DNA of 64,000 nucleotides from Acidobacteriota bacterium (GTDB taxonomy: Bacteria; Acidobacteriota; Holophagae; Holophagales; Holophagaceae), in NCBI GenBank assembly GCA_021794095.1, contig JAJYRN010000012.1, forward strand, positions 1 to 64,000, written 5' to 3'. Of the stretch, positions 28,535 through 29,665 are shown piece by piece. The first letter of the stretch is position 1. Each line of letters starts with the position of its first letter. The notes under the pieces are model-generated. The model did not search any database and was not told where the DNA came from. It was given only the letters and a program-made list of their open reading frames with translations. Both the position numbers and the translations under genes were made by a program.

Positions 28535-29263
28535 TCATGCCCGGCTCCCGGCGATGGCCGTGCGCATCTCAGCCACTGCCCGTTCGAGACCGACGAAGAT
28601 GGCGCGGCCGATGATGCTATGGCCGATGTTGAGTTCCTCCACCTCGGGGATGGCCGCCACCGGGCCCACATTCGTGAGGCTCAGGCCGTGGCCCGCAAGC
28701 ACACGCAAGCCGAGGCGGCTGGCCATCCGGCCGGCCTCGCGCAGACGGGCCAGCTCCGCCGAAGGATCGGCGGTCATGGGGAGATCCGCGTAGAGTCCGG
28801 TGTTCAACTCCACCGCGTCCGCTTCCAGCTTCGCGGCCATCTTGATCTGGTCGAGCACGGGATCGAGGAACAGGCTCGTGCGGATGTCGGCGGCCCGCAG
28901 CTCCCGGATGATGCCTCGCAGCATGCCCTGGAGGAAGACGGCATCAAGTCCGCCCTGGGTGGTGAGCTCCTCGCGGCTTTCAGGCACCAGGGTCACCCAG
29001 GCGGGCTTCACCGGATTCACGGCGGCCATGGCTTCCGCGGTGGCGGCGCATTCCACATTCAGAGGCACGGCCAGCACCTCCTTGAGGATGTGGAGATCCC
29101 GCTCCTGGATGTGTCTCCGGTCGCCGCGGAGATGGACGGTGATGCCGTCTGCCCCTGCGCCCTGGGCCATCAGAGCAGCGGCGGCGGGTTCGGGCTCATG
29201 CCCCGCACGAGCCTGACGGAGGGTGGCCACATGATCGATGTTGACGCCTAGCCTGGGGTTCAA
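28535..29263 (-). CDS. pdxJ: Pyridoxine 5'-phosphate synthase
   Basis: RLGVNIDHVATLRQARAGHEPEPAAAALMAQGAGADGITVHLRGDRRHIQERD. Confidence 0.96.
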   Translation of the reverse strand: MNPRLGVNIDHVATLRQARAGHEPEPAAAALMAQGAGADGITVHLRGDRRHIQERDLHILKEVLAVPLNVECAATAEAMAAVNPVKPAWVTLVPESREELTTQGGLDAVFLQGMLRGIIRELRAADIRTSLFLDPVLDQIKMAAKLEADAVELNTGLYADLPMTADPSAELARLREAGRMASRLGLRVLAGHGLSLTNVGPVAAIPEVEELNIGHSIIGRAIFVGLERAVAEMRTAIAGSRA

Positions 29264-29292
29264 GGAGGCTCCGGGGGTTCTTCTAGCAGCTT

Positions 29293-29565
29293 AGGAGCTG
29301 GAGCGGAATAAGCAAAGCCATCGCGCGGGGTGCCGGGCAAGCGAGTCAAGGAGACTGAGGTTCCAGCGGAGCGGGACTCCGTGAACCGAAGCCGACGCAG
29401 GATCGCGCAGCCCGCCACCCCGCGCCCGGAGGGTTGACGCCCATCCGCGCGCCCCGCGGCGTCAGGGCCCTTGAACCATGAACCACATGGCCCTGCGGGC
29501 CCTTCCTTGCGGATGCATCGCGGCTGGGCGTCAACGATGGCATCGATTATTCCGTTCCAGCTCCT
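29293..29565. ncRNA. Unidentified large structured element (structured RNA candidate or MITE-like repeat)
   Basis: Closing stem 29293-29311/29547-29565 (19 bp, one G.U); nested stems 29317-29323/29535-29541, 29323-29332/29416-29425, 29335-29338/29410-29413, 29367-29371/29377-29381, 29433-29443/29525-29535, 29443-29448/29509-29514, 29463-29469/29489-29495; no convincing ORF. A few stem ends share a base, so not all pairs coexist. Confidence 0.65.
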
Positions 29566-29665
29566 GAACCGACGGGGCTTTAGATCCTCCATCGGCTTTG
29601 GGAGGCTCTTGCATAATGACTAAATGAGAGTTGAAACGTTTATTGCGGGCCACCAGAATGGAGCC

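Follow-up and report, generated by a model that had tools for sequence, protein, structure and literature searches.

MITEs are usually explained as relics that arose from one IS by internal deletion. Bacterial MITEs that are mobilised by IS transposases include Nezha, Correia, and the MITEs of Coxiella and Acinetobacter (PMC3049150, PMC5896051, PMC6382973, PMC4133298). The BOX element of Streptococcus is a modular, hairpin-forming repeat in which an internal module can be present or absent while the fold stays intact (PMC3049150). TIMEs are Tn3-derived miniature elements of about 262 bp, with a structured core that holds no ORF, and they are mobilised in trans (PMC4133298). REP sequences are palindromic dispersed repeats that are targeted by IS110-family elements (PMC1525189). 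A limited search of open-licence papers returned nothing relevant on a family of this kind in Geothrix or on a single core carrying different ends.

The element described here is located between pdxJ and a gene for a LigB-type dioxygenase, within the window, that is, the whole stretch of 64,000 nucleotides from contig JAJYRN010000012.1 of an Acidobacteriota bacterium that was analysed. Its parts and flanks, together with related elements from elsewhere, are listed in Table 1. The inverted-repeat arms at 29293–29311 and 29547–29565 and the internal arms were found as the sequence-only reading had described them. Of the 19 bp of outer pairing that it had proposed, 18 bp lie within the element, and the outermost A and T are parts of the flanking 3-mers TTA and TGA; element ends in the copies were detected using narrow flanks. 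The view that the gap holds no credible ORF was also upheld: a reading frame of 110 amino acids spans it on the minus strand (29260–29592), but no reading frame in the element was conserved over the 95 copies compared.

Table 1. Positions of the element, its parts and flanks in the window, and of related elements elsewhere.
Feature	Position	Strand	Remarks
MITE	29294..29564	.	271 bp; identical ends in dispersed copies; empty site in 24 relatives
Left target duplication TTA	29291..29293	.	AGCTTA kept in relatives' empty sites; TNA statistics
Right target duplication TGA, one mismatch to TTA	29565..29567	.	TNA statistics; empty sites of relatives
Left arm, closing stem P1	29294..29322	.	Outer 18 bp (GGAGCTGGAGCGGAATAA) are the terminal inverted repeat
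Branch P2 of foldback	29323..29425	.	Predicted fold and consensus pairing
Branch P3 of foldback	29433..29535	.	Predicted fold and consensus pairing
Right arm, closing stem P1	29536..29564	.	Outer 18 bp are the second terminal inverted repeat
IS110-family element	L089:2457-4019 = G000:C16:72456-74018		
TNA-flanked stubs	L202, L220, L221, L222, L253, L254, L257		

When the window's own genome (2.99 Mb in 28 contigs) was subjected to a DNA search, about 30 copies or fragments were found besides the focal copy. The search gave eight copies of 271 bp with 96–100% identity and nine that were longer, about eleven element ends sitting at contig ends, two short deletion products (C2:2759 and C13:59393), and one copy that an IS110-family element interrupts. 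In relatives, the same core was observed at roughly 75–97% identity. In a class-wide sample, the core was present in 44 of the 47 genomes of the genus as well as in 12 genomes of seven further genera of the same family, and no other family of that sample contained it; the element is spread through the Geothrix group. Plasmid and phage collections gave no match to the core. When public genome contigs were scanned with the terminal 19-mer, Holophagaceae/Geothrix records were returned, as well as matches in other phyla that are probably due to chance. Several copies in the draft genome G012 (L255–L262) contain NN inside the foldback, and therefore draft assemblies are no reliable guide to copy number or internal length.

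The spacer between pdxJ and the dioxygenase gene was uninterrupted in all 24 aligned relatives with the same gene order, and in these empty sites the insertion point nearly always reads TAGCTTA (or TAGCCTA). The focal locus reads AGCTTA, then the element, then TGAACC. Among the 95 aligned copies, 119 of the 190 flanking 3-mers were TNA, and the left and right 3-mers were identical in 29 copies, as compared with about 11 by permutation (by group, 7 against 3.0 and 22 against 8.1). The matching 3-mers are direct, not inverted, repeats, and TNA direct duplications of this kind are the hallmark of a DDE transposase that targets TNA.

The ends of the element are exchangeable between copies. Cores that are 95–97% identical were found with arms that are only 28–61% alike, on both sides equally, yet each divergent arm pair is self-complementary (mean 96%); in one such group, conservation is 0.96 in the core and drops to 0.74 in the arms. 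In many cases the arm differences resemble the drift of a single motif (GAGTGCCTAACAAAACCCC). Three arm classes match complete ISs of sister genomes, with ends and target duplication alike. The class GAGTGCCTAACAAAA matches an IS5-family element of 869 bp (L225) with TTA on both sides, and the class GGGTCTGTTTTCAAA matches an IS5-family element of 861 bp (L247) with TA on both sides, which is present in several copies in genome G019. The class GAGCCTGTCCAAGTAA matches an IS1182-family element (L231/L244; NF033551, 381.9 bits), and both the IS and the MITE have CTAG on either side. According to a core tree without branch-support values, IS1182-type copies are nested inside IS5-type ones. For the focal class (GGAGCTGGAACGGAATAA ends), a pattern search yielded no parent in its own genome or among the genus matches listed, and its own genome contained no DDE_Tnp_1 protein. 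That genome also holds two cores with the IS1182-type ends, at G000:C22:78665-78867 and G000:C20:34184-34387 (L102 and L103), flanked by CTAG (in one of them CTAG/CTTG).

The interior of the element is modular as well. Four hairpin modules (+42, +78, +57 and +35 bp) occur at four fixed points in the window's own genome, and their combinations give lengths of 271, 313, 328, 348, 349, 391 and 448 bp. Freely combined modules are seen at C8:55259, C16:265496, C4:162353, C24:51572, C21:8071 and C16:188171 of this genome. Such free combination suggests recombination between copies. Of these modules, at least the +42 one is also found in other species, again at the same point. At the other extreme, stubs of 48–61 bp consist of little beyond the two terminal repeats, and each of them is flanked by TNA.

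When both strands of the focal copy were folded, the multi-stem architecture proposed earlier proved to be far from chance. The minimum free energy was −171.5 kcal/mol on the plus strand (shuffles −128.1; z = −7.25) and −184.2 kcal/mol on the minus strand (shuffles −134.0; z = −9.20), and none of 100 shuffled sequences reached the native stability. The consensus fold of about 95 copies is a three-way foldback with a closing stem, P1, formed by the terminal repeats plus their continuation, and two branches, P2 and P3. Over 95 copies, Watson–Crick pairing amounted to 91.1% in P1, 92.4% in P2 and 88.4% in P3. It was 60.4, 80.4 and 77.0%, respectively, when the 3′ partner was taken from another copy, and it fell to 21–41% when the 3′ partner was slid by 1–3 columns. 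At least two Watson–Crick types were used at 60 of the 99 pairs. All of these figures count copies and not independent events. Stem pairing is thus retained despite sequence change, and compensatory pairing is strong.

Such covariation might be taken as the mark of a functional three-way-junction RNA of about 270 nt riding on transposon ends, in which the core would be kept for the role of the RNA while the closing stem need only pair. The contrast between the well-conserved core and the dissimilar arms given above would fit this reading, as would the pairing, which is kept with many Watson–Crick types and lies well above that of the slid or dealt controls. The neighbouring genes, the orientation of which was called by codon-position composition, point the same way: over 95 genus copies, 26 pairs were convergent and 11 divergent, in 15 cases both genes ran with the plus direction and in 33 both against it; the last of these differences suggests, weakly, that the sense strand is more commonly the minus strand. 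Even strong covariation is not sufficient to show an RNA in a dispersed repeat, however, and in a foldback transposon compensatory pairing alone does not show RNA function; counting G-U against A-C helps to tell the two apart. If selection acted on one RNA strand, G-U would be expected to be favoured there. Among the pairs that the folds of both strands share, G-U occupied 183 cells and A-C 194 (70 and 68 pair types), so that no strand was preferred. The two intermediates are equally common, and therefore nothing points to selection on either strand as RNA; we read this balance as pairing that is kept at the level of DNA. The large structured RNA of OMEGA/HEARO, ROOL or GOLLD type that the sequence-only reading had put forward was not borne out, given this lack of strand-specific wobble (99 pairs, 95 copies) and the lack of an Rfam match. 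Searches with the Rfam covariance models, including HEARO (RF02033), gave nothing even at E ≤ 10 except a trivial match to mir-632 (14.8 bits against a cut-off of 67), and HEARO and the other Rfam RNAs were accordingly rejected. Moreover, nested modules and stubs of 48–61 bp are tolerated, and some complete genomes contain few or no copies, so that the element is dispensable. A functional RNA is thus improbable.

Still less probable is a REP/BIME-like palindrome that is moved as single-stranded DNA by a Y1 (RAYT) transposase. Y1 transposition is not known to leave a target duplication, and the direct target duplications and the IS-type inverted ends of the element point to a DDE transposase instead. 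The element does share with such palindromes a dispersed, intergenic, hairpin-forming character, and REPs are known targets of IS110-family elements (PMC1525189). An IS110-family element of 1563 bp, encoding a recombinase of 450 amino acids (NF033542, 237 bits), adjoins the repeat at C16:72159-74035, where it interrupts one copy, and the same junctions were found at seven contig ends (C2 at both ends, C14, C16, C18, C20 and C27). This adjacency would be expected if the stretch were part of the IS110-family element, namely its guide-RNA region. The IS110-family element is, however, absent from the other 46 genus genomes, most of which hold the repeat, and it interrupts the repeat at one fixed point, in at least six MITE copies, with a CT dinucleotide on both sides (GGCATTG-CT-TATTTCG). 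The repeat is therefore its target, and the reading as an IS110 part, contradicted on both counts, was rejected as having next to no probability. The 5′ non-coding region of the IS110-family element contains AAATAAG, 7 nt of the target, which is possibly a guide. The insertions at one point of the MITE provide a natural target set for RNA-guided insertion.

The element is small, dispersed in many copies and without a transposase gene; its terminal inverted repeats lie at fixed ends, it is flanked by TNA duplications (with one mismatch in the focal copy), its orthologous site is empty in relatives, and autonomous ISs exist for three sister arm classes. With these features observed, it is very probably a non-autonomous DNA transposon (MITE) that is moved as DNA by a DDE transposase encoded elsewhere, which agrees with the dispersed MITE-like element that the sequence-only reading had offered beside the RNA. 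Such a transposase, most likely of IS5 type, would bind the 18-bp terminal repeats, move the 271-bp element as DNA in trans, insert it at TNA and duplicate those 3 bp; for the GGAGCTGGAACGGAATAA ends, a transposase of their own class is presumed. In our opinion, the near-perfect foldback would persist for two reasons: either arm can serve as template for its partner, and both ends have to be read by one transposase. Recombination between copies may homogenise the core and exchange arms and hairpin modules. Some findings speak against the MITE reading: identical flanking 3-mers occur in only about 30% of copies, with one mismatch in the focal copy; the search described above yielded no parent of the focal arm class; and conservation is higher in the core than in the arms, which plain neutral decay would not predict.

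A conserved core that carries the ends and duplications of different transposon families calls for a route of end exchange. Recombination between copies and foldback templating are candidate routes, and they can be traced in dozens of genomes. More speculatively, and with considerable doubt on our part, the foldback core may be a persistent selfish (or useful) unit that repeatedly acquires paired ends from any transposons then active; unrelated transposases, of IS5 types and of IS1182, would thus have moved a single core one after another.

The family is a new, modular MITE family, ordinary in kind and unusual in its exchangeable ends. With HEARO/OMEGA, ROOL and GOLLD RNAs it shares a large multi-stem predicted fold, whereas it has no Rfam match and no strand-specific signal and shows transposon-type dispersal. 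As in REPs, a palindromic dispersed repeat is struck by an IS110-family element, always at one fixed point and with a direct repeat of 2 bp, but what is hit here is a MITE of about 270 bp. The element resembles the BOX elements of Streptococcus in being modular, dispersed and hairpin-forming; it differs from them in having single hairpin modules of four kinds, inserted at four fixed points, with no tandem boxB-like array, and in having ends tied to known IS types. It is also similar to TIMEs in size and in its conserved structured core without an ORF, and probably in its mobilisation in trans; the ends of TIMEs come from one transposon family (Tn3, 38 bp, with 5–6 bp duplications), whereas several end types occur here. 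The element is like other bacterial MITEs in its size, its lack of genes, its terminal inverted repeats and short target duplications, its dispersal between genes, its hairpin fold and, for three arm classes, its IS-matching ends. Unlike these, the present family combines one conserved core, a GC-rich three-way foldback of about 270 bp, with the ends of at least three IS types (two of the IS5 family and one of IS1182).
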